The notes under the pieces are model-generated. The model saw only the letters and a program-made list of their open reading frames with translations, ran no database searches and was not told the origin of the DNA. From the NCBI RefSeq assembly GCF_018734325.1, contig NZ_CP073754.1:186001-250000 (forward strand): a stretch of DNA of 64,000 nt, given 5' to 3'. Source of the stretch: Methylomonas paludis (GTDB lineage Bacteria > Pseudomonadota > Gammaproteobacteria > Methylococcales > Methylomonadaceae). The position numbers and the translations under genes are program-made. The number at the start of each line of letters is the position of its first letter. The first letter of the stretch is position 1. Shown here one piece after another: positions 8,953-64,000 of this stretch.

Positions 8953-9822
8953 CTACAAATCTCCTTGTGAGTTATTGAATTTTTGTTTCAAACGAAACAG
9001 CGCCGAAATGTCTTCGTCGCCGAAACCTTTTGCCATCAAATTTGCGTAATCGGTCAGCGTTGCTTCAGTTAACCGGCAATCAATAGCGGATTGTTGAGCC
9101 ATCTCGCGGCAAATCAACAGATCTTTATGATGTAAAGCCAATTTGAAGCCAGGCTTAAAAATACCTTGGATCATGGTTTTGCCGCGATGTTGTAGAAACC
9201 AGTTGCCGGCGGCACCTCCAGAAATGATATCAATAACTTTTTCTAAATCCAGATGCTGCCCAACCGCAAAGGCCAGGGCTTCGCAAACTGCCTGATTGAT
9301 ACCGGCTGCCATAATTTGATTAACCGCCTTGCAAGCTTGTCCGGCACCGCTATCGCCCATATGTTCTATTCTTGCTGCAATCACTTCCAGCCAGGGTTTT
9401 ACTTGGGCCAAAGCCATTGCATCCCCGCCAACCATCATTGCCAGAGTACCTTTATTTGCCCCTTCCACACCGCCCGATACAGGCGCATCAAGAAAACAGG
9501 CCTGTTTTTCACTTAAAATGGCTGCCGCTTGCCTAGCTGTCACACTGCTGATAGTCGAGGTATCAATCACCACCGTACCAGGCTTAATGGATAAAGCCAA
9601 GGCAGACACCACCTCCAGAACGTCCCGGTCCGCTGAAACGCAAATAAAAATTATCTCCGTGTCAGCCGCCAAGGCCTGCGGACTGGCATAAACATTCACG
9701 TTAAACTCGGTGGTTTTGCCCGGGCTGCGATTGTATACCCCATGCAGATAACCCTGCCGGGCTAAATTATGCGCCATTCCGCGTCCCATGGCTCCCAAAC
9801 CGATAAAGCCGACTCTCATCAT
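8953..9822 (-). CDS. beta-hydroxyacid dehydrogenase (GarR/MmsB family)
   Basis: The 289-residue NAD(P)-dependent enzyme has VGFIGLGAMGRGMAHNLA (residues 4-21), the substrate motif DAPVSGGVEGANKGTLAMM (112-130) and the catalytic K165 in GAGQACKAVNQI. The family includes tartronate semialdehyde reductase, 3-hydroxyisobutyrate dehydrogenase and succinic semialdehyde reductases. The sequence alone does not fix the substrate. It abuts ugd and shares its direction. Confidence 0.88.
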   Translation of the reverse strand: MMRVGFIGLGAMGRGMAHNLARQGYLHGVYNRSPGKTTEFNVNVYASPQALAADTEIIFICVSADRDVLEVVSALALSIKPGTVVIDTSTISSVTARQAAAILSEKQACFLDAPVSGGVEGANKGTLAMMVGGDAMALAQVKPWLEVIAARIEHMGDSGAGQACKAVNQIMAAGINQAVCEALAFAVGQHLDLEKVIDIISGGAAGNWFLQHRGKTMIQGIFKPGFKLALHHKDLLICREMAQQSAIDCRLTEATLTDYANLMAKGFGDEDISALFRLKQKFNNSQGDL

Positions 9823-47944: not shown

Positions 47945-49192
47945 CTAATGCTGATTAATTGGTAACTGCAAGGCTAACAACTTTACCGGGTGGCACAACT
48001 TGGCGCCATGACGCTGCAAAAAAGCCGTACAGGCAAAATTGCTGCTTAACACCACATCAGCCGGGGCTGCTGATATACAATCCAGTTTCATTGCCCGTAG
48101 GCGTTGAGCATTGCCGGGATGGGTCAGCATATAACTGCCGCCCGCCCCGCAACAGAGGTTATTGTCTGCCAATGGCGCAATACTCAGTTCGGGGATTTTT
48201 TCCAGCAAAGCATAAACAGCCTGCTGATTTTTCAGAACATTGCGTTGACTGCAAGGTTCATGGACTGCTACCTTGATGCTGGCAGGCCTGAGTTTAAGTT
48301 CGGTAGGCCAATGACTGAGTAAAAACTGATTAATATCCTGCAAGCGCTCATGAAAAACTTGGGCAGCTGCGGTATCTTCACTTTGATATTCATGCAACAT
48401 GGCACCACAGCCGGATGCGGCATACAACACCGCCTCAACATCAAGAGCATTAAACACCGCCAGATTATTTTCAATCAAATTCTGGGAGGTGATCCCATTA
48501 TGTTGGTGGATAGCGCCGCAGCAACTTTGCTGGGCCGGTACCAGCACGTCATAAGCTATCGCATTCAGCAGCTTAATGGCGGCAGTCAAATTTTCCCGGT
48601 CAAAATGCTCGGCAATACAGCCGCTGAATAAGGCCACCCGACCACGACAGGGGAGTGAAGTGCGATAACGCCCGGCTAAAGCAGTCATTGCCGGAGTAGT
48701 CATGATCGCATCAGTCTCTGCCACACCGAGTTTTAGCAAAATACCGGTCGCTCTAAGTAGCGCCTGCAAACCGGATTTTCGATAAAACACCAGCGCGGGC
48801 ATTAGTGCAGCTCGCCAGTTTTTATGGTCTATCAGCCACAAAGCCAGTTTGGCCAAACGTCCTGGCGCAGTAGCCACAGTCGCAAGAGCTTGATCAAATA
48901 GCGCACCATAAGCCATCCGACTTGGACAGACCGTTTCACAGGCCCGGCATTGCACGCAATTGCGCAAATGCTGATGTTCAGCTGAACTCACTGGCTCTTG
49001 GCTCACCAATATTTTGCTGATAGTGCGAATTCGCCGCCGTGGTGTTTCTTCATCAATTTCAAACAACCGGAAGGTAGGGCAATGACTTACACACATCCCG
49101 CAACGCATGCATTCAGCGGCTTCGGGAATATAAGGCCCATCTGGTGCGGCAACTGGATCATCTTCGCTGCCAAAATCCATGAAATCGAACAT
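47945..49192 (-). CDS. GlcF/LutA-like iron-sulfur oxidoreductase at the end of the nif operon
   Basis: The 415-residue protein has two 4Fe-4S motifs, C28-X2-C31-X2-C34-X3-C38 (CMRCGMCVSHCP) and C79-X2-C82-X2-C85-X3-C89 (CVQCRACETVCP), and two CCG domains (SCCGAIHQHNG and NLCCGAGGSYML). It matches the iron-sulfur subunit of glycolate oxidase (GlcF) in layout, but no glcD or glcE flavoprotein gene is near. It starts one base after the stop of the preceding gene in the nif operon. A role in electron delivery linked to nitrogen fixation is inferred from this; true glycolate oxidation is the alternative. Confidence 0.82.
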   Translation of the reverse strand: MFDFMDFGSEDDPVAAPDGPYIPEAAECMRCGMCVSHCPTFRLFEIDEETPRRRIRTISKILVSQEPVSSAEHQHLRNCVQCRACETVCPSRMAYGALFDQALATVATAPGRLAKLALWLIDHKNWRAALMPALVFYRKSGLQALLRATGILLKLGVAETDAIMTTPAMTALAGRYRTSLPCRGRVALFSGCIAEHFDRENLTAAIKLLNAIAYDVLVPAQQSCCGAIHQHNGITSQNLIENNLAVFNALDVEAVLYAASGCGAMLHEYQSEDTAAAQVFHERLQDINQFLLSHWPTELKLRPASIKVAVHEPCSQRNVLKNQQAVYALLEKIPELSIAPLADNNLCCGAGGSYMLTHPGNAQRLRAMKLDCISAAPADVVLSSNFACTAFLQRHGAKLCHPVKLLALQLPINQH

Positions 49193-49193
49193 A

Positions 49194-49637
49194 TCAAGAC
49201 TCCATGACTTTTACATAAGCGCGGCGTAACAATTCCATTTCTGCCGGTGGTCTGCCGCGTAAAGCTGGCAGGGTTTTTAAACAGCAATCCAACTTGGACA
49301 TCAGTTTATGTGGCGGATCCAGCACCGTAAAGCGGGCCATATAAACGGTAATAATCCCACCGGGTGCATCAATCTGCTCACTAAAGCCTGGCTCAGCGCG
49401 TAACAAATCTGTATCCAGCCGTAAAATCCGGTTGATCACATTCACCAGAGCGGCAGGGTGCATGGTAATCTTGCTTGACTCCACCTCGTCCTCCTCCAGC
49501 GCTTCAGATAATGCCGGTAAGGCCTTGGGAAAGCACACACTGCCGTTTGCTTGTTGAGCAAACAAAGTTAACGCACTGATATCGCCCTTGTAATACAGCA
49601 ATAACCGATGATGATTGAAAACGCTAAGATCGGTCAT
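49194..49637 (-). CDS. nif-operon protein of unknown function (147 aa)
   Basis: I do not recognise this protein. It is soluble, without signal or metal-binding clusters apart from a single CC pair (KLDCCLKTL). Segments include LLLYYKGDISALTLFAQQAN and GGIITVYMARFTVLDPPH. It lies 3 bases downstream of the DUF364-like gene and 1 base upstream of the GlcF-like gene, so it belongs to the nif transcript. Presumed accessory role. Confidence 0.65.
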   Translation of the reverse strand: MTDLSVFNHHRLLLYYKGDISALTLFAQQANGSVCFPKALPALSEALEEDEVESSKITMHPAALVNVINRILRLDTDLLRAEPGFSEQIDAPGGIITVYMARFTVLDPPHKLMSKLDCCLKTLPALRGRPPAEMELLRRAYVKVMES

Positions 49638-49640
49638 GCC

Positions 49641-50603
49641 TCAAACAGTACTGAACTGATCCCAGAGAGGTTTATAGCTGCTATCCAGGCGCGATAAGCG
49701 GATATTTACTCGTTCCAGCAAAGCGTAATCCGGAAAACGGCTACTATTACCGGCGCTATACCAAGCTTCCATCGCCGCAGACAACCGGGATCTCTCCGCA
49801 GCGCAATCGGCAATTTGTTGTTTCAGCCAGCTCATACTCTGATTTGGGTTCAGATCGGCAATCCGGTAACGCAAACCGCTGCCGAAAATTTTTACCCCAC
49901 CGCCCTGAGCCACAGTTTGTTGCAAAGTCTCTACATCATTAACTTCCACCCCAGCCAGATAATCAATGCCAAATTCATGGAGCTGCGGCAACCAAGGCAC
50001 GGTCGGCCCCATTAAGACAGTTTTTGCATTGCCGGCTAATTCTGCCAAGCGAGGAAACGTCTTATTAGTAATTGAACTGGCAGTTAAAAACACCCAATCA
50101 GCCTGAGGCAACAAAAACTCACAGGCAGAATCAGGTAAATCGGCCGCAATCGGCTGCTTTTCCAAAATGGTCAGCCGCATTTGCTGTTCATAGCGTTCAA
50201 TACCCGGATAACGGCCTATCACCACCACATTTTTACCCTGTAAGTCCGGTAAAAAATAATCGAATACTGCCAGATTGGGATATTCGCTAATATTAGCCAA
50301 GCCAATCGAGTCCGGCAATGGCCTGCTGTTGATACAGCTATTGATAGCAGCCATCGCCACCGTGGCTTTATAAGGTTCCCATTCCAAAATCCAGGCGGCG
50401 ATATCGGTCAACGCCATCCCTGATAATGTCCCGGACCAGGGCAGGGTACGAGTGGGCAAGCCTGGACTCATAGCTAACCCGGCACCGTTGTGAGCCGAAT
50501 TACGGCAAAGCGTCCACACCAGACCAATAAACACCTGATCAATCACAGCATTGCTGCTGCAATAATCAATCAGTAATTCATAGAGGCGCTTGGGATTATG
50601 CAT
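49641..50603 (-). CDS. DUF4213/DUF364-like putative metal-chelation protein in the nif operon
   Basis: The 320-residue protein resembles the DUF4213-DUF364 (putative heavy-metal chelation) architecture. The C-terminal half has VVVIGRYPGIERYE, DWVFLTASSITNKTFPRLAE and VLMGPTVPWLPQLHEFGID, followed by a loop LAGVEVNDVETLQQ. The N-terminal half contains GLVWTLCRNSAHNGAGLAM. The family is linked to metal or cofactor handling, but its biochemistry is unproven. Inside a nif operon with NifE/N/X it may take part in Mo or Fe-S cluster delivery. Confidence 0.72.
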   Translation of the reverse strand: MHNPKRLYELLIDYCSSNAVIDQVFIGLVWTLCRNSAHNGAGLAMSPGLPTRTLPWSGTLSGMALTDIAAWILEWEPYKATVAMAAINSCINSRPLPDSIGLANISEYPNLAVFDYFLPDLQGKNVVVIGRYPGIERYEQQMRLTILEKQPIAADLPDSACEFLLPQADWVFLTASSITNKTFPRLAELAGNAKTVLMGPTVPWLPQLHEFGIDYLAGVEVNDVETLQQTVAQGGGVKIFGSGLRYRIADLNPNQSMSWLKQQIADCAAERSRLSAAMEAWYSAGNSSRFPDYALLERVNIRLSRLDSSYKPLWDQFSTV

Positions 50604-50609
50604 AAGGGC

Positions 50610-50990
50610 TTATTGCGGGATATCCAGTAATTTAGCTTCCACCTTAATATTATCCAGTTTACCCCAGGCATTGATAGCTTCCACAAACCAGCGCTTTTTA
50701 GTAGGGTGGGGTTGCACCACATCATATTCCGCGTAGAAACTACCATCGCCATAAAATTTGATCTGGCCGATGCGCTGCTTAGCCGTATCATACCAATAGC
50801 CGGTCAAATCCTGACTTTGCGTATAAGGATCTACCACCAAATGAAACACCGCCGCATCAAATTCCGGGCTTGGTAACTTAAGTTCTAACGGAAAACCCAG
50901 TTTAGCGATACATTCGGCTATCTTTCCGCATACAGTTTGACCATAGACACGTTTTTCATCAATCTGCATGTTTACATCGCTACTACTCAT
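50610..50990 (-). CDS. nif-operon protein of unknown function (126 aa)
   Basis: This small soluble protein is not recognised. The C-terminal half looks beta-rich with many aromatic residues (LTGYWYDTAKQRIGQIKFYG, then DGSFYAEYDVVQPHP and KKRWFVEAINAWGKLDNIKV). Two Cys lie near residues 21 and 27. It starts one base after the TPR gene ends and ends 6 bases before the next gene, so it is cotranscribed. Function unknown. Confidence 0.65.
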   Translation of the reverse strand: MSSSDVNMQIDEKRVYGQTVCGKIAECIAKLGFPLELKLPSPEFDAAVFHLVVDPYTQSQDLTGYWYDTAKQRIGQIKFYGDGSFYAEYDVVQPHPTKKRWFVEAINAWGKLDNIKVEAKLLDIPQ

Positions 50991-50991
50991 A

Positions 50992-51492
50992 CTAATCCTC
51001 GTTTAAAGCTTGGGCCAACTGCATAATCACCGAGCCGCCGGAACGGTCTTCCGGATCAAGTTGCTTTAATAATGTCAGAATATACTGCGCATCATCAGTC
51101 TGATCCTGGCGCAGCTTAATAAACGCCAAGGCTTTCAGCGTATACAAATAAAACAGACTAACCTCGCTGGCGTACATATCCCAAGATGCGGCAACAGCTG
51201 CCAACTGCCGGTAATTGCCGGGAAAGCCGCCCTGCAGAGCGGCAGCGGCCAGTCCGGCGTGAACTTCACGTTCGGCTTCATCCAAACGACCCTGATAAAA
51301 ATAAAATTTATACAGAGCAAAATAAGTTTGCAAGCAGCTGCCGTCCAGTTGCTGGGCCTGCTTAAACAAAGCTTCGGCCCTGGGTCTGTCGACATGATTG
51401 GCCACTACACCGGCTTGTAATAACTGATTAACCGCTTCAGGTAAATCGGGGCTGAACAGTACCCGCTCCTCAAGCACCGACAGCGCCTGCAT
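50992..51492 (-). CDS. TPR-like helical protein of the nif operon
   Basis: The 166-residue protein looks like tetratricopeptide helices: RAEALFKQAQQLDGSCLQTY, then FALYKFYFYQGRLDEAEREV and a later KALAFIKLRQDQTDDAQYIL pair. TPR folds mediate protein-protein contacts. It sits 2 bases downstream of the FeSI gene. It may be a scaffold for nitrogenase assembly proteins, but there is no direct evidence. Confidence 0.7.
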   Translation of the reverse strand: MQALSVLEERVLFSPDLPEAVNQLLQAGVVANHVDRPRAEALFKQAQQLDGSCLQTYFALYKFYFYQGRLDEAEREVHAGLAAAALQGGFPGNYRQLAAVAASWDMYASEVSLFYLYTLKALAFIKLRQDQTDDAQYILTLLKQLDPEDRSGGSVIMQLAQALNED

Positions 51493-51494
51493 GA

Positions 51495-51818
51495 TTACCA
51501 GACCTCGGCAGGGGCCTGCAAGGCAGCAACCGGTGTACCGCCCAATAAATGCTGATCAATAATGGTTTTCACATCATCTTTAGTCACCCGGCCATACATA
51601 ATCCCTTCAGGATAAACCAGCACACTAGGTCCCAGCATGCAAGGACCCATGCAACCGGTATTGGTCAAGCCGATTTTTTCGAATAAATTACGGGATTGAA
51701 TCTCATTCATAAACTCATTCATCACTTCCGCACAGCCACTGCTGGAACAGGAGCCGCGTGGATGCCCCTGCGGGCGATTCTGAGTGCAGACAAAAACATG
51801 TTTTTCGGGTCTAGGCAT
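51495..51818 (-). CDS. FeSI (Shethna I)-type thioredoxin-like [2Fe-2S] ferredoxin
   Basis: With the start MPRPEKHVFVC (CAGGAG upstream) this is 107 residues and resembles Azotobacter FeSI over its length: NRPQGHPRGSC, NTGCMGPCMLGPSVLVYPEG and QHLLGGTP to the C-terminal PAEVW. Ligands are C11, C24, C56 and C60, with an extra C29. Thioredoxin-fold 2Fe-2S ferredoxins of nif clusters interact with the MoFe protein in Azotobacter. A longer start 13 codons upstream is rejected. With the FeSII gene at 1023 the window holds both Shethna types. Confidence 0.85.
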   Translation of the reverse strand: MPRPEKHVFVCTQNRPQGHPRGSCSSSGCAEVMNEFMNEIQSRNLFEKIGLTNTGCMGPCMLGPSVLVYPEGIMYGRVTKDDVKTIIDQHLLGGTPVAALQAPAEVW

Positions 51819-51899
51819 GGCAGGCTCCTGTAGGGAAATATGGGCAGTAGTAATCAATCACCGGAGCGGCAAGCACCGCTCACAACAGCAGCAGTCGGC

Positions 51900-52217
51900 T
51901 TAAGCCGCAATCTTAGGTTCATGAGTAAAGCAGTCTTTAGGGCAAACTTTAGAACAGGCCTCGCAACCTATGCAATCAGCCGGATTTTTCAACGTCATTA
52001 CCTGACTGTTATCGTCATCGTCCTCAAAATCCGCATAACTATCATCAAACTGCTCAGCTTCCAGCACTTCATCCTTGTCAACCAAATCAAAAACATCGCG
52101 TGGACACACTTTAAAACAGCGTCCGCAACCAATACAGGTGCGTGGATTCAGATTGGTTACATAAGCAGGCGTCCAAACCGTACCACCAAAAGTCGTTCCG
52201 GTAATAAATTCGCTCAT
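51900..52217 (-). CDS. fdxB: nif-specific ferredoxin III (2[4Fe-4S])
   Basis: The 105-residue protein has C28-X2-C31-X2-C34-X3-C38 (CIGCGRCFKVCP) and C82-X2-C85-X2-C88-X3-C92 (CIGCEACSKVCP), separated by an acidic stretch rich in D/E (residues 48-70). The N-terminal TGTTFGGTVWTPAYV is characteristic of the FdxB family in nif clusters. It donates electrons in nitrogenase cofactor assembly or turnover. GAGGAG precedes the start. Confidence 0.93.
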   Translation of the reverse strand: MSEFITGTTFGGTVWTPAYVTNLNPRTCIGCGRCFKVCPRDVFDLVDKDEVLEAEQFDDSYADFEDDDDNSQVMTLKNPADCIGCEACSKVCPKDCFTHEPKIAA

Positions 52218-52453: not shown

Positions 52454-52927
52454 TCAGGCTTCCGCAACTTCCCGGTATTGCTCGATTAAGGCAACAGCTT
52501 TATTAACCACCAGATCAGTTTTCTCAGCCAAATCCGCCAGACTCGGAAAACCGAAGCGATGCACATCACGCAGAATTTTATCCACCACAATCAGCTTGCC
52601 CACCAGCACAAAAGCCCGGCCAAAACCCTCATGGGTAATATTGATCACCGGTACCGCCATCATGCCGGACTTTTTCTCGATCAGACAGGCAATACTGTTG
52701 TAATAAGCCTTTACCCGCGCCAAAGTGATTTCATCCGGATCACCAACGATAGGGATTTCCCGTTTGCGCTCCTTGGTCAATACCAAAGGATCAATAATTT
52801 TTTCCTGTGACCAGCCTTCATATTTGTCATAAGTATCCATTGCTCGCAATTGCTTGAGCATTTCCACCACCACATCTGAAGTCATGAAAGGGTCGCCGCT
52901 TTCCACGGCAAGAGCGGGTTGAGTCAT
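52454..52927 (-). CDS. NifX-associated nitrogen fixation protein (DUF269)
   Basis: The 157-residue protein has the DUF269 features WSQEKIIDPLVLTKERKREI, DEITLARVKAYYNSIACLIE and RFGFPSLADLAEKTDLV. It is always found next to nifX in nif clusters and is thought to assist FeMo-cofactor synthesis, but its activity is not known. A GGAGAATTACC-ATG context gives a strong start. A GC-rich hairpin at 52955 lies between it and nifX. Confidence 0.9.
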   Translation of the reverse strand: MTQPALAVESGDPFMTSDVVVEMLKQLRAMDTYDKYEGWSQEKIIDPLVLTKERKREIPIVGDPDEITLARVKAYYNSIACLIEKKSGMMAVPVINITHEGFGRAFVLVGKLIVVDKILRDVHRFGFPSLADLAEKTDLVVNKAVALIEQYREVAEA

Positions 52928-52954
52928 GGTAATTCTCCTGTTAGTTAATATTCA

Positions 52955-52972
52955 GGTGGGGCAACCCCCACC
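52955..52972 (-). promoter_or_regulatory. GC-rich hairpin between nifX and the DUF269 gene
   Basis: GGTGGGG (52955-52961) pairs with CCCCACC (52966-52972) across a 4-base loop, a very stable stem in the only gap of any size (94 bases) in the nif operon. It has no T tract. It may act as a partial terminator or an RNA-processing/stability element dividing the operon into nifENX and downstream genes. Confidence 0.5.
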
Positions 52973-53021
52973 ATTTGGATAGTTTTGATTGAACCTGATG
53001 GTCAAGACGGATGATTAAGAC

Positions 53022-53507
53022 CTATTCTTGCCAACCTTCATCTTCCATTTCATCAAAGCGTTTCAGATCCGGGCCCTTATGCAGACTGATTGCTTTAGCC
53101 AGCCAACTGGAAGGCCCGGACTTCATTTCATTCTGCAAATCAGTAATTAAGTCTTTAATAGTACTGCCTTCATGTACCTTGATCGGCTGAATCCCATGAT
53201 TCACAATCTGCTTAATGGCCGAAGCACCAACCGCCTGGCAATACACCGCCGCGCAGCCGTCCAGCAATTGCAGTTTTACCGATAGTTTGTCCTCATTGCC
53301 GTCCTGGGCCAATTCACCAAATTGAGCGGCTTCCAGTATTTCCGCGTTTTCTGGATCTACCGCATACACGGCAAATGACTTGGCGGAACCAAAATGCTGA
53401 TTGACATGCAGCATATCCGAGGTAGCAAAAGCGACTTTAATAGCAGTTTCCATAGGCACTCTCTGTTCATGGTTATGCACAATGTGCATGCGGCGAGTTA
53501 ATGACAT
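53022..53507 (-). CDS. nifX: NifX, NifB-co/VK-cluster carrier
   Basis: The 161-residue protein has the NafY/NifX core [39 protein letters not shown] and [19 protein letters not shown]. It binds FeMo-cofactor precursors and passes them between NifB and NifEN. The long start [13 protein letters not shown] agrees with Azotobacter NifX and overlaps the end of nifN by 10 bases. Confidence 0.92.
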
Positions 53508-54896: not shown

Positions 54897-56333
54897 TCAA
54901 GCCGCCTGTGATTGCAAGTCGCTGACCGGTTCGGCCAATGCCGTCTTTGTCACGCCACTACGCCACGGCGCCGGAGCCCGCACCGCCTGCCATACCGGAC
55001 TTTCCATAGTCAAAGCCAGCTGCCGTACTAACTCCAGCATGCCCTGATAACCTTCATAACCGAATTCGCGTTCCTGATTAATATCCAGAAACGGGATACG
55101 CGCCTTCAGCGCGGTATACATATTCCGGCCACCAGCGATCAGAATATCGGCCTTGTAATCGCGGACGATTTGCAGCAGCGCTTTCGGACTGCCGTCTTCT
55201 ATCATTAAAGTATCTTCACCCATCAATTCCCGAATTCGAGCCTTATCTTCCTCAGTGGATTTTTTAGTGCCGGTGGCAACCACCACCATACCCAAATCCT
55301 GCAAAGCAGAAATCACCGACCAGCTTTTCACCCCGCCGGTAAACAGCAGTACCCGCTTGCCTTTCAAACGTTCCTTCCAGGGAGCCAGTTCGGTGCGAAT
55401 CCGGTTTTCCTCGCGTTCAATAATGGCTTCGGTGCGGGCAATCAAATCCGGATCGTCTATCACCCTGGCAAAATCGCGCAAAGCCTGACTAGTATCGGTG
55501 ATGCCATAAAAACTACCCTCAAACCACGGCGTACCGTATTGTTTTTGCAAACGCCGGGCAACATTCACCATCGCCTTGGAACAAACCATCATATTCACTT
55601 CAGCCTTATGCATAGTTTGCACCTCACGGAACCGGGCATCCCCGGAGAGCGTGCACAATACCCGCAGGCCCATTTCATCCAGTAAAGGCAGTACATGCCA
55701 GAACTCCCCGGCAATGTTGTATTCACCCACCAGATTCACATCATGAATCTTAATGCCGCGCAGTTCACTGCCAGGCGGTAAGGGGTCGGGGTCACGGGTG
55801 CCTATCACATGATTAACCATAGCATCACCGGCAATCCGGTTACCCAGATTCTTGGTACCATAAAAACCGGCGCAATCAATCGGCACCACCGGAACATTCC
55901 AGCGCTCCTGGGCGGATTTGCAGATGGCATTAATATCGTCGCCCACCAAAGCCGGCACACAAGTGTTGTAAATAAACACCGCCGGAGGATTAAAACTGTC
56001 TATAGCTTGTTTGATAGAGTGAAACAGCCGCTTTTCACTGCGGCCCATAATCACATCCTGTTCAGTTAAATCAGTTGTCATACCGGTGCGGTACAATTCC
56101 GAGCCAGAAGAGCGGGTACCCCGGTTGTCCCAGGAACTGCCAGCACAGGCTATCGGGCCGTGGACTATATGGGCCACATCGGCAATCGGCAGCAGGGCAA
56201 TCTGGGCGCCGTCAAAAGCGCAGCCCCCGGCCGCCGTACCCGGTTTGGGTTTGGCGCAACCGGATTTTTCCTTCTTGTTATGCTCACAAGCCGGTTCGTC
56301 TAACAGTTCCGCAATATCTTTGCTCGATTTCAT
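54897..56333 (-). CDS. nifE: NifE, FeMo-cofactor scaffold subunit
   Basis: The 478-residue product ([17 protein letters not shown]) has [53 protein letters not shown] and [17 protein letters not shown], all NifE-specific. It forms a tetramer with NifN that converts NifB-co to FeMo-cofactor. An ATG ten codons upstream (56363) lies next to the -12 box of the sigma-54 promoter, ahead of any possible transcript start, so the start at 56333 with GAGGT upstream is chosen. First gene of the 11-gene operon. Confidence 0.95.
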
Positions 56334-56363: not shown

Positions 56364-56379
56364 TGCAACCGGTGTGCCA
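56364..56379 (-). promoter_or_regulatory. sigma-54 promoter of the nifE operon
   Basis: On the minus strand TGGCAC-ACCGG-TTGCA matches the -24/-12 consensus TGGCAC-N5-TTGCA exactly, about 31 bases before the nifE start codon. Confidence 0.92.
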
Positions 56380-56423: not shown

Positions 56424-56439
56424 TGTCGTAAATCCGACA
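56424..56439. promoter_or_regulatory. NifA upstream activator site
   Basis: TGT-CGTAAATCCG-ACA fits the NifA consensus TGT-N10-ACA exactly and lies about 50 bases upstream of the -24 element, a usual distance. Confidence 0.85.
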
Positions 56440-56537
56440 AAAATGGTTTTGTGGTATGGCGCAGGGCTACAAAATTAATTTGGTATACTGTGCAGCGTGA
56501 GCATTAGGTTTAAAAATTGTCAGGAGTCAAGTCAGTG

Positions 56538-58919
56538 ATGAAATATAAAGGATTATGGTATTACGCAGTTTTGCTGGTTTTTTTGGGTTGGTGTGTCATC
56601 TCGTTTCGGGCTGACATCGCCCAGATCAAATTACTGCCGGTGGTTCAGGCCTGGGATAAAGTGCTGCTGGCCCTGGCCTTATCCCTGCTGAATTATTTGC
56701 TGCGCGTTATGCGCTGGACAGCCTATCTCCAACGCCTGGGGCACGGTTTGACGTTTCGTTTCTCGGCATTGACCTATCTTGCCGGTTTTGCCTTTACCCT
56801 GTCGCCAGGCAAAGTCGGGGAAATGGTCAGAGGCCGTTATCTGCAAAAATCCGGTGTTCCCTTGACCAGTACCGCAGCAGCGTTTTTTGTAGAACGCCTG
56901 CTGGATTTGCTGGCCATGATCGCCTTGGCAACCCTGGCAGTTGCATACTCCAGCTATCAATCCCTGATCTGGGGAGCGGTTGCCGTCATCATCGTCATCA
57001 TGGCCTTATTAACCATTGCCCCCTGGTCAGCCATCATGCAGCGATTGGAGGCACAAAGCTGGTTGCCGGTATTTTTCCGGCGCATTATCCATACTGTCTT
57101 GTGTACCCTGCTTTCCGCCAGAGCGCTGCTGCAGCCGGGTATCCTGCTCAAAGGCTTTGTGTTGGGCCTGATAGCCTGGGCTTGTGAAGGTGTGGGCCTG
57201 ATGGTACTGGGCAACATCCCACCCGAAGTAGGCATGGATGTCAGTGCGGCGGTAGGCATCTACTCAATTGCCGTGATCGTCGGCGCCCTGTCATTTCTAC
57301 CAGGCGGACTGGGCGGCACCGAGGCCCTGATGGTGGCCCTGCTTGCTGCACACGGCTATACCATGCCGGATGCCATTCTACTAACCCTGGTCTGCCGCCT
57401 GCTGACCCTGTGGTTTGCCGTGCTGATAGGCTGGATAGCCGTATTCATGCTGCGTCCCCAGCCAGACCGGCGCATCAAAGTACCGGACGATCAGCCGGAA
57501 ACCTTGTCAATACCCTTATGTGTCGATCTGGACGGCACCCTGATACACAGCGATCTATTATTGGAAACCTTAGTATTGCTGCTCAAGCGTAATCCTTTAT
57601 ACGTTTTTCTGGTGCCGGTCTGGTTATTAAAAGGCAAAGCCGCCATGAAAGCCCAAATTGCCGCACGAGTCAGCCTCAACCCGGCCGCCTTACCCTACAA
57701 CAAAGCCCTGCTGGGTTGGTTGCACAGTCAGCGGCAGGCCGGTCGTCAACTCTGGCTATGTACAGCATCCAATCAGCGTCTGGCAGATGCCGTAGCCGCC
57801 CATTTACAGATTTTTAACGGAGTACTGGCCAGTACCGATCAGCTTAACCTGTCCGGGCGCAAAAAAGCCGCAAAACTGGTGCAGCAATTTGGTACCAAAG
57901 CTTTTGATTACTGTGGCAACGCCCATATCGACCTAGCGATTTGGGCAGAAAGTCGTGCCGCCATCACCGTAAATGCCGGGGCAAAATTGCAGCAACAAGC
58001 GGAAAAAATAGCCGAAATAGCCGGAATATTCCCCAAGTCCAACGGCTTGCTGCGGCCTATCCTAAAGGCAATGCGCCTGCATCAGTGGGCCAAAAACGTA
58101 CTGATTTTCGTGCCCTTGGCGGCTGCCCATAAACTGAGTGACTTTATTAGCGTTCAACAGACGCTGATGGCCTTTCTGGCGTTTGGTTTCTGTGCCTCCT
58201 CCGTGTACTTGCTCAACGACATGCTGGATTTGGAAGTAGACCGCGAACACCCCAGAAAATGCCGGCGGCCCTTCGCATCCGGCAGCCTGTCGCTGGCTTA
58301 CGGCCTGGTGCTGATACCCTTGCTGCTATTGGCAACCCTGCTGCTGGCGCTCAACCTGCCCGGCAAATTCTGCTTAGTGCTGGCCGGCTATTATCTGCTC
58401 ACCATCGCCTATTCCTTTGGATTGAAACGCATCGTCTTAATCGACACCATCACCCTGGCCGGTTTATACACCGTTCGCATCATTGCCGGTGCCACCGCCA
58501 TCGCCGTGCCCTTGTCGTTCTGGTTGTTACTGTTTTCGGTGTTTTTATTCTTCAGTCTGGCGCTGGTCAAACGCTATGCCGAACTGGATGCCATGCAGCG
58601 GCAGGGCAAACTCAAAGCCGCCGGGCGCGGCTATCGCATCCAGGATCTGCCCATGCTGCACAGTATGGGCAGCTCTTCCGGCTATTTATGCGTACTGGTA
58701 CTGGCTTTATATATCAACTCCCCGGATATCCAGGCCCTGTACCACCACCCCCAGGTCATCTGGTGCCTGTGTGTCCTGCTGCTGTACTGGATCAGCCGCA
58801 TCTGGCTAAAAACCCATCGCGGCGAAATGCACGACGACCCGGTCATCTTCGCCCTAAAAGACAAAGCCAGCCTGCTGGTCGGTGCTCTGGCAGCCCTGGT
58901 CGCGGTGCTGGCAGTGTGA
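56538..58919 (+). CDS. three-domain membrane fusion: UPF0104 flippase-like + HAD + UbiA prenyltransferase
   Basis: From the ATG at 56538 (CAGGAG upstream; a GTG one codon earlier or a TTG at 56517 are alternatives) the protein has 793 residues. Residues 1-305 are multi-pass and resemble the LPG-synthase membrane/AglD family (GFAFTLSPGKVGEMVRGRYL, SFLPGGLGGTEALMVALLA). Residues 325-490 are a HAD domain with DLDGT at 330-334, but motif IV reads CGNAHIDL with Asn for the first Asp. Residues 505-793 are a UbiA-type prenyltransferase with YLLNDMLDLEVDREHPRK, like decaprenyl-phosphate phosphoribosyltransferases. HAD-UbiA fusions are known; the added UPF0104 part suggests a lipid-linked sugar is made, processed and flipped by one protein. 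Confidence 0.85.
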   Translation: MKYKGLWYYAVLLVFLGWCVISFRADIAQIKLLPVVQAWDKVLLALALSLLNYLLRVMRWTAYLQRLGHGLTFRFSALTYLAGFAFTLSPGKVGEMVRGRYLQKSGVPLTSTAAAFFVERLLDLLAMIALATLAVAYSSYQSLIWGAVAVIIVIMALLTIAPWSAIMQRLEAQSWLPVFFRRIIHTVLCTLLSARALLQPGILLKGFVLGLIAWACEGVGLMVLGNIPPEVGMDVSAAVGIYSIAVIVGALSFLPGGLGGTEALMVALLAAHGYTMPDAILLTLVCRLLTLWFAVLIGWIAVFMLRPQPDRRIKVPDDQPETLSIPLCVDLDGTLIHSDLLLETLVLLLKRNPLYVFLVPVWLLKGKAAMKAQIAARVSLNPAALPYNKALLGWLHSQRQAGRQLWLCTASNQRLADAVAAHLQIFNGVLASTDQLNLSGRKKAAKLVQQFGTKAFDYCGNAHIDLAIWAESRAAITVNAGAKLQQQAEKIAEIAGIFPKSNGLLRPILKAMRLHQWAKNVLIFVPLAAAHKLSDFISVQQTLMAFLAFGFCASSVYLLNDMLDLEVDREHPRKCRRPFASGSLSLAYGLVLIPLLLLATLLLALNLPGKFCLVLAGYYLLTIAYSFGLKRIVLIDTITLAGLYTVRIIAGATAIAVPLSFWLLLFSVFLFFSLALVKRYAELDAMQRQGKLKAAGRGYRIQDLPMLHSMGSSSGYLCVLVLALYINSPDIQALYHHPQVIWCLCVLLLYWISRIWLKTHRGEMHDDPVIFALKDKASLLVGALAALVAVLAV

Positions 58920-59770: not shown

Positions 59771-60778
59771 GTAGGGTGGCTTCGCCGCCAGGCAAGCCAC
59801 CAAAACTACGCGGGCGTTTGGCGTCTAGCTATCGCAAAACACCCAACGCAACAGAGGCCAGCATAACCTGCATCATCGCGACCCGTAGCCTCGATGCAAC
59901 GTAGTGAAATCGAGGGCTTCGCAGCACAACCTTAATCAAACCAGCGTCAGCGAGATTCAACAAGGTCCTTACAAAACCTGGGGGCCGCCATGATGCTGCA
60001 CATAAGACCAGCCGGATTCCGATACAATGGCCTGATAAAAAAAATCACATCGGCTAATAAATTCAGCCCCCAACTCACTGATGCCCATCTCAGCTTCGTC
60101 AACCATGTAAGGTGGCTTCGCCGCCAGGCAAGCCACCAAAACTACGCGGGCGTTTGGCGTCTAGCTATCGCAAAACACCCAACGCAACAGAGGCCACCAT
60201 AACCTGCATCATCGCGACCCGTAGCCTCGATGCAACGTAGTGGAATCGAGGGCTTCGCAGCACAACCTTAATCAAACCAGCGTCAGCGAGATTCAACAAT
60301 GTCCTTACAAAACCTGGGGGCCGCCATGATGCTGCACATAAGACCAGCCGGATTCCGATACAGTGGCCTGATAAAAACAATCACGCCGGTTAATAAATTC
60401 AGCCCCCAACTCACTGATGCCCATCTCAGCTTCGTCAACCATGTAGGGTGGCTTCGCCGCCAGGCAAGCCACCAAAACTACGCGGGCGTTTGGCGTCTAG
60501 CCATCTCAAAACACCCAACGCAACAGAGGCCACCATAACCTGCATCATCGCGACCCGAAGCCTCGATCCAACTTAGTGAAATCGAGGGCTTCGCAGCACA
60601 ACCTTAATCAAACCAGCGTCAGCGAGATTCAACAATGTCCTTACAAAACCTGGGGGCCGCCATGATGCTGCTCATAAGGCCAGCCGGATTCCGATACCGT
60701 GGCCTGATAAAAACAATCACGCCGGTTAATAAATTCAGCCCCCAACTCACTGATGCCCATCTCAGCTTCGTCAGCTCA
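59771..60778. repeat. three tandem copies of a 336-bp unit
   Basis: The units begin at 59771, 60107 and 60443 with GTAGGGTGGCTTCGCCGCC or a one-base variant, and each continues through a CCTCGAT/ATCGAGG palindrome, AACCTGGGGGCCGCCATGAT, CATAAGACCAGCCGGATTCC and CAACTCACTGATGCCCATC. Copies differ by only a few bases, so amplification was recent. Because 336 is divisible by three, short open frames recur in each unit (for example 59990, 60299, 60635), but they lack ribosome sites and I do not call them genes. Confidence 0.92.
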
Positions 60779-60903
60779 TTCAAAATCACGGTTAACCTAA
60801 AGACTGGACGTAAACCCAATCTGGGCAAACGCAGTCACCATGCTCATTCTCCTGTAATACCGGTGACAGCAACTGCCGCCGGATTAACCATAAAGTTTAA
60901 GGT

Positions 60904-63645: not shown

Positions 63646-64000
63646 CTTATATCATGCGCCCCGCCTTGGAACTGACAGAGGTCTATCTTTACCGGCAAGC
63701 CATTGATTTTCGCAAATCCCATCGTGGCCTGGCGGCGATTATTGAGTGTGAGCTCGGCCATAATCCGTTTGATGGTGGGCTGTATGCGTTCACCAATCAG
63801 CAGCGAACTAAAATCAAATGTTTGTTCTGGGAAAACACGGGCTTTGTCCTTTATTACAAGGCTTTGGTCGAGGATAAGTTCAAGTGGCCGAAGGGTGATG
63901 AGGCACTGTTAACGTTAACCGGTCAGCAGTTGAATTGGCTTTTGGATGGCTATGACATTAGCGTCATGAAAGGCCATAAAAACCGGCATTATGAATCTGT
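63642..64000 (+). CDS. tnpB: IS66 TnpB (Orf2), 3' end outside window
   Basis: The frame starts at GTG 63642 or ATG 63654 and stays open to the last base. It shows the IS66 Orf2 pattern: EVYLYRQAIDFRKSHRGLAA, then FDGGLYAFTNQQRTKIKCLF and LYYKALVEDKFKWP. TnpB is needed for IS66 movement, with TnpC (the DDE transposase) expected next. Partial, so the total length cannot be judged. Confidence 0.88.
   Translation, partial: MTYIMRPALELTEVYLYRQAIDFRKSHRGLAAIIECELGHNPFDGGLYAFTNQQRTKIKCLFWENTGFVLYYKALVEDKFKWPKGDEALLTLTGQQLNWLLDGYDISVMKGHKNRHYES

Follow-up and report, generated by a model that had tools for sequence, protein, structure and literature searches.

A NafT family protein and an adjoining GlcF-like iron-sulfur protein at the tail of a nif operon in Methylomonas paludis

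What do the five poorly known genes at the end of the nifE operon of Methylomonas paludis contribute to nitrogen fixation? The genes encode a TPR-like protein of 166 residues (TPR166), a protein of 126 residues (U126), a DUF4213-DUF364 protein, a protein of 147 residues (U147) and a GlcF-like iron-sulfur protein. They are located in a stretch of 64,000 nucleotides (contig NZ_CP073754.1, positions 186,001 to 250,000; referred to as the window) of a genome of 3.67 Mb, which consists of a single contig. U147 is, as judged by sequence profile and modelled fold, a member of the nitrogenase-associated factor T (NafT) family, and the tail is read, with somewhat better than even confidence, as a NafT-centred module for the maturation or repair of the MoFe protein. 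The new element is the pair formed by NafT and the GlcF-like protein.

The profile of the U147 family, compared with the sequences of the PDB, matched the NafT chains 9cjf_E (3.5e-13; PDB 9CJF) and 8eno_E (3.6e-13; PDB 8ENO); only these two NafT entries stood out, the next matches having values of 0.6 or worse. A template-free AlphaFold model of U147, for which only the window and related methanotroph sequences served as input, reached a predicted local distance difference test score (pLDDT) of 84.4. Its best two Foldseek matches were again the NafT chains, with E-values of 1.5e-8 (8eno_E, template modelling score 0.84 by target) and 2.7e-6. Matches to Nudix proteins were weak (best 6e-3) and far below those to NafT, and an assignment to that family is not claimed. 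The label 'unknown', which the preliminary description had attached to the 126- and 147-residue proteins, is thus no longer suitable for the latter. Structure prediction, proposed there for both proteins, linked the 147-residue model to NafT and left the 126-residue model without a clear relative in the PDB.

NafT is encoded by Avin_01560 in Azotobacter vinelandii. The protein co-purifies with the homocitrate-deficient MoFe protein obtained from a nifV deletion, its site on the MoFe protein partly overlaps that of the Fe protein, and in vitro it binds MoFe protein after alkaline turnover inactivation as well (PMC9968304, PMC11612016). The published binding to homocitrate-deficient MoFe protein is what points to maturation or repair. 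In the proposed mechanism, once homocitrate is missing and the cofactor pocket has loosened, NafT would dock on NifDK (the MoFe protein) at a surface that overlaps the Fe protein site, as shown for A. vinelandii. MoFe protein that is immature or damaged by turnover might thereby be withheld from the electron-transfer cycle during cofactor insertion or repair. U147 would accordingly be expected to bind the NifDK of its own species, by analogy with A. vinelandii. TPR166, U126 and the DUF364 protein are operon partners of NafT across diazotrophs, the GlcF-like protein, as the weakest link of the scheme, is probably a redox partner of the repair step that was added beside NafT in Methylomonadaceae, and the module is predicted to be expressed from NifA/sigma-54 promoters. 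In the literature examined, NafT is the only protein that is reported to recognise nitrogenase after the loss of homocitrate.

The operon comprises the following features, listed in the direction of transcription.

56424 to 56439, minus strand: NifA upstream activator-like site TGT-N10-ACA, 60 bp above the sigma-54 promoter
56364 to 56379, minus strand: sigma-54 -24/-12 promoter of nifE, TGGCACACCGGTTGCA, perfect match
54897 to 56333, minus strand: nifE, ATG start (the listed open reading frame begins at TTG 56363); TIGR01283, 705.7 bits in its own genome
53498 to 54895, minus strand: nifN, assigned by conserved gene order
53022 to 53507, minus strand: nifX; TIGR02663, 116 bits (cut-off 112)
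52454 to 52927, minus strand: DUF269 NifX-associated protein; TIGR02935 and PF03270
52227 to 52448, minus strand: Rop-like nif protein; PF05082
51900 to 52217, minus strand: fdxB, nif-specific ferredoxin III; TIGR02936, 118.2 bits, passing the cut-off of 80.55
51495 to 51818, minus strand: FeSI-like (Shethna I-like) [2Fe-2S] thioredoxin-like ferredoxin; PF01257
50992 to 51492, minus strand: TPR166, TPR-like protein; PF14559, E-value 3.6e-5; collinear in A. vinelandii
50610 to 50990, minus strand: U126; no Pfam or NCBIfam match
49641 to 50603, minus strand: DUF4213-DUF364 protein of a nif-linked subgroup with a C-terminal extension; PF04016 and PF13938
49194 to 49637, minus strand: U147, NafT homologue by profile, fold and gene order
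47945 to 49192, minus strand: GlcF-like Fe-S protein; PF02754 and PF13183

The gaps in the tail measure 2 bp (FeSI-TPR166), 1 bp (TPR166-U126), 6 bp (U126-DUF364), 3 bp (DUF364-U147) and 1 bp (U147-GlcF-like), so that the five-gene tail with spacings of 1 to 6 bp on the minus strand is borne out as first described; wider gaps occur higher in the operon (FdxB-FeSI, 81 bp; NifX-DUF269, 94 bp). All five tail reading frames have conserved homologues and are therefore regarded as real genes. The FeSI-like protein scored 137.5 bits against NF041613, under the equivalog-domain cut-off of 195, yet shares 50% identity with the product of the A. vinelandii gene in the matching position, hence the name 'FeSI-like'.

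When the NafT sequence was used to search 328 genomes from a single family, it led to the A. vinelandii genome, whose NafT was 100% identical to the query. The order in this genome is nifE-nifN-nifX-DUF269-Rop-FeSI-TPR166-U126-DUF364-NafT, each gene being matched to the window by profile or BLAST, and this arrangement, in part with individual genes absent, was also observed in other genomes of that family, in several other Gammaproteobacteria and in two further genomes of the same phylum. The A. vinelandii block (FeSI, Avin_01520, to NafT, Avin_01560) and the window share the gene order after nifENX and the type of nifE promoter, and the two NafT proteins are homologous by sequence and fold, although only about 29% identical. 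Methylomonas differs in the longer C-terminus of its DUF364 protein, in the added GlcF-like gene, in the replacement of the docking-loop histidines and Arg16 of NafT, and in the distance of approximately 156 kb between nifE and nifH. Because A. vinelandii carries the same order, TPR166, U126, the DUF364 protein and NafT, four of the five tail genes, represent a block of known position which is nevertheless uncharacterised; no open phenotype data on Avin_01530-01550 were found in the literature. The nif island of Pseudomonas stutzeri A1501 (PST1336-PST1344) contains DUF269, DUF683 and 4Fe-4S and 2Fe-2S ferredoxin genes followed by five conserved hypothetical genes (PMC2820453), an order like that of the window which was also found in Pseudomonadaceae genomes. 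This island differs in having modCBA after the block and an extra NifA/RpoN promoter listed at the 4Fe-4S ferredoxin gene (PMC2820453), and in lacking a GlcF-like gene.

Regarding the partners of NafT, TPR166 scored 24.4 bits against PF14559 (gathering score 25). A second TPR166-like protein is encoded after nifV-cysE in many nif clusters, including that of A. vinelandii (L017 7234-7734, L072 6358-6885, L103 9414-10163). The model of U126 (pLDDT 91.7) shows a long helix and a six-strand sheet; no Foldseek match in the PDB had an E-value under 0.001, and the best VIA score was Z 5.1, to OspA. The DUF364 protein matched PF04016 (3.3e-38; 131.1 bits, cut-off 23) and PF13938 (1.5e-18; 67.3 bits, cut-off 23.5), and both domains align with PDB 3L5O (Dhaf4260) over 243 positions (E-value 1.4e-36). 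Most of the interdomain pocket is retained: the residues Gly129, Glu148, Thr174, Thr182 and Asn83 of 3L5O (numbering inferred as chain index minus 19) have counterparts in the Methylomonas protein, whereas Arg42, Gly39 and Asp180 are changed to Pro, Ala and Asn, respectively; the Methylomonas protein further differs in its nif context and in approximately 70 extra C-terminal residues. For DUF364, Miller et al. predicted an enzyme whose substrates are flavin-like, pterin-like or metal-chelating molecules (PMC2954201). The Methylomonas protein is probably an enzyme with a small, cofactor-related molecule as its substrate; no literature tying DUF364 to nitrogen fixation was found.

These features bear on an explanation which partly overlaps with the maturation reading, namely that the block helps to supply the FeMo-cofactor with molybdenum or a chelating ligand, with the DUF364 protein as the key enzyme and NafT only a sensor. 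DUF364 homologues adjoin genes for Mo, W, V and Fe transport (PMC2954201), modCBA follows the P. stutzeri block (PMC2820453), an ATP-binding cassette ATPase reading frame follows NafT in A. vinelandii, and the five pocket residues mentioned above are retained. The altered residues of the same pocket, the lack of a transporter gene in the window operon, and the presence of a nif-type DUF364 gene in only 6 of the 13 NafT genomes outside Methylococcales nevertheless make this supply function rather unlikely as the main role.

The contact helix of NafT (A. vinelandii residues 117-131), Ser14 and the NifD contact residues are taken from published work (PMC9968304, PMC11612016). Among 84 family sequences, Ser14 and the helix positions L122, L123, R124, A/V126 and Y/F127 are near-invariant, and the NifD contact residues H195, H196, D200 and Y281 are all kept in 14 Methylomonadaceae NifD proteins. 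In A. vinelandii NafT, His9, His11 and His95 were suggested as a metal-binding cluster and Arg16 as a salt bridge (PMC9968304, PMC11612016), which are reported contacts of one protein and not a published definition of the family. In all of 48 Methylomonadaceae sequences His9, His11, His95 and Arg16 are replaced by Tyr, Gly, Leu (or Phe) and Leu, respectively. The docking face is thus kept, but the histidine cluster is not a general feature of NafT; the suggested metal site is absent from a large group of NafT proteins. A compensating change in NifD for the remodelled loop was not seen at the published contact residues of the same 14 proteins. Tyr9 occurs in all NafT sequences that are accompanied by a GlcF-like gene and His9 in all those without it outside Methylomonadaceae, with exceptions within Methylomonadaceae at loci L061, L022 and L049. 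Both features mark one clade, so the correlation is not evidence of coevolution, and this explanation was rejected.

NafT family paralogues (103-110 bits) were also observed outside nif clusters in Methylococcales genomes of another family (f4; L062, L065, L066, L067); their loops retain His9 and Arg16, and their helix has Trp for the second Arg. A further paralogue outside nif in the same family (L063 8484-8963) adjoins NifK-like reading frames at 9015-9476, which lie in two frames (45% and 40% identity) and look like a nifK remnant.

The last gene of the operon encodes a protein with two ferredoxin-type CxxCxxCxxxCP motifs (PF13183) and two CCG domains (PF02754), in which Cys28/31/34/38 and Cys79/82/85/89 are invariant (26 sequences). 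It shares full-length similarity and domain order with GlcF, the glycolate oxidase iron-sulfur subunit, but its score of 175.5 bits against NF008434, well below the equivalog cut-off of 333, shows that it is not GlcF; instead of a GlcD or GlcE partner it adjoins NafT. The gene comes immediately after NafT in 50 of 52 loci of Methylomonadaceae, a family name deduced from the locus titles, and in four more genomes of this family (L072-L075), while none was seen beside NafT in the loci of other families examined. The GlcF-like gene is a Methylomonadaceae-specific addition to the NafT block.

NafT and the GlcF-like gene are kept together in each of three contexts, namely the tail of nifENX, a pnfA-like operon and a nifV-cysE-FeSI operon. 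In the second context, found in more than 20 loci, NafT and the GlcF-like gene follow a pnfA-like gene which is divergent from nifH or near nifL-nifA-rnf; TGG-N8-TTGC together with TGT-N10-ACA is located upstream of 23 of 23 Methylomonadaceae pnfA-like genes, and NifA/sigma-54 sites precede nifV in 9 of 11 loci. The pnfA-like gene shares 54% identity with the A. vinelandii gene that diverges from nifH. A correspondence to PnfA (PST1325) is proposed from its position, its size and homology reported in the literature rather than from an alignment with PST1325 itself. In some methanotrophs the pnfA-like gene and DUF364-NafT-GlcF are separated by a gene for a small Ras/Roc-like GTPase (L019 3188-3787, L027 8427-9014).

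The intact ferredoxin motifs and CCG domains, the position behind pnfA-like genes and the low nitrogenase activity of a P. stutzeri pnfA mutant (PMC2820453) are what might be expected if a redox chain made up of the FeSI-like protein, the GlcF-like protein and, in other species, their PnfA-like neighbour served nitrogenase in electron transfer or in protection from oxygen. This possibility, which likewise overlaps in part with the maturation reading, is regarded as still less likely than metal or ligand supply: no gene for a GlcD-type flavoprotein lies beside the GlcF-like gene in the loci inspected, NafT occurs without the GlcF-like gene in the other families examined, and what has been published on NafT deals with the loss of homocitrate and the obstructed access of the Fe protein rather than with electron donation. 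A more specific form of the maturation reading is put forward only tentatively: NafT with its remodelled docking loop and the GlcF-like protein may constitute a dedicated redox repair complex of Methylomonadaceae, in which NafT would hold homocitrate-deficient MoFe protein and the GlcF-like protein would feed electrons or clusters for re-seating of the cofactor. No mention of a redox partner was found in the literature on NafT.

Expression of the tail from the nifE promoter, also suggested in the preliminary description, agrees with the perfect -24/-12 element, TGGCACACCGGTTGCA, at 56379-56364 (minus strand), which is the sole match in the window at no more than one mismatch. The TGT-N10-ACA motif by itself is not rarer than chance in the window (11 observed versus 13.9), but the pair of sigma-54 promoter and upstream site is kept before nifE in 37 of 40 loci. 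Between nifE and the operon end no further sigma-54 site was found and terminator-like signals were not above chance (10 sites versus 10.8 expected), and a terminator splitting the operon was rejected on this ground. A single transcript probably covers all genes of the operon. The nifX-DUF269 gap (52928-53021, minus strand) can form a 7-bp GC hairpin with no T run, a possible processing site, although the gap overall folds no better than shuffled sequences (z -1.0).

The distribution of the families follows that of nitrogen fixation. Among 201 Methylococcales genomes, U147 was detected in 95, nifE in 110 and both in 92 (Fisher p 2e-34; genome co-occurrence counts here and below ignore phylogeny). 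Of the three genomes that have NafT without detected nifE, two seem to hold relics: in G126 an intact U147 adjoins a fragment of DUF364 (L061), and in G100 only part of U147 is present, at the end of a contig. The third, G029, has an intact paralogue. In samples of the class Gammaproteobacteria, NafT was found in 8 of 185 and U126 in 5 of 141 genomes, every one of them with nifE. The 63 genomes with nifE outside Methylococcales contained NafT (13), U126 (15), TPR166 (28) and DUF364 (13), and NafT was paired there with U126 (p 5e-6), TPR166 (p 4e-6) and DUF364 (p 0.02). A plasmid search with U147 and U126 gave a match only in Methylococcus sp. EFPC2. The genome and neighbourhood searches thus reject the idea that these families occur mostly without nif, and the suggestion of an accessory nitrogenase module is well supported by the restriction of the genes to diazotrophs, their linkage to nif and their location behind NifA/sigma-54 sites. 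That the genes are mere passengers without a nitrogenase role, kept in nif operons through block movement of nif clusters, would suit the 18 Methylococcales genomes with nifE and no U147 and the weak induction in P. stutzeri (PMC2820453), but is very improbable given that the NafT-GlcF pair persists through three operon contexts, each behind NifA/sigma-54 sites, that A. vinelandii NafT binds the MoFe protein (PMC9968304, PMC11612016), and that the block decays (L061) in a genome without detected nifE.

Several points weigh against the NafT-centred maturation or repair module. The published function of NafT extends to nothing beyond binding (PMC9968304, PMC11612016), and the mode of docking in Methylomonadaceae may differ because His9, His11, His95 and Arg16 are replaced. 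NafT is dispensable in evolution, no copy being detectable in 18 of the 110 Methylococcales genomes with nifE, and the co-occurrence counts carry the phylogenetic limit given above. The P. stutzeri genes that are flanked by the 2Fe-2S ferredoxin gene and PST1344, assigned to the tail genes by gene order, were up 1.28-, 1.28-, 3.69- and 2.56-fold during N2 fixation, versus 35.8-fold for nifE (PMC2820453), so that strong co-induction of the tail with nifE is not certain. The conserved operon partners of NafT (TPR166, U126 and the DUF364 protein), the lineage-specific Fe-S partner and the pnfA link are now named and provide concrete targets for pull-down and deletion experiments, which may be of help in engineering stable nitrogenase in new hosts.

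Elsewhere in the window, an open reading frame of 800 residues divergent from nifE (56517-58919, plus strand) appears by eye to encode a fusion protein in which a flippase/synthase-like membrane domain is joined to a HAD-like phosphatase and to a UbiA-like prenyltransferase. A direct-repeat stretch at 59990-60850 encodes the near-identical peptide LSFVNHVxWLRRQASHQNYAGVWRLAI in reading frames of both strands, every 310-340 bp approximately, and transposase-like reading frames occupy both strands from 61970 to the window end at 64000.

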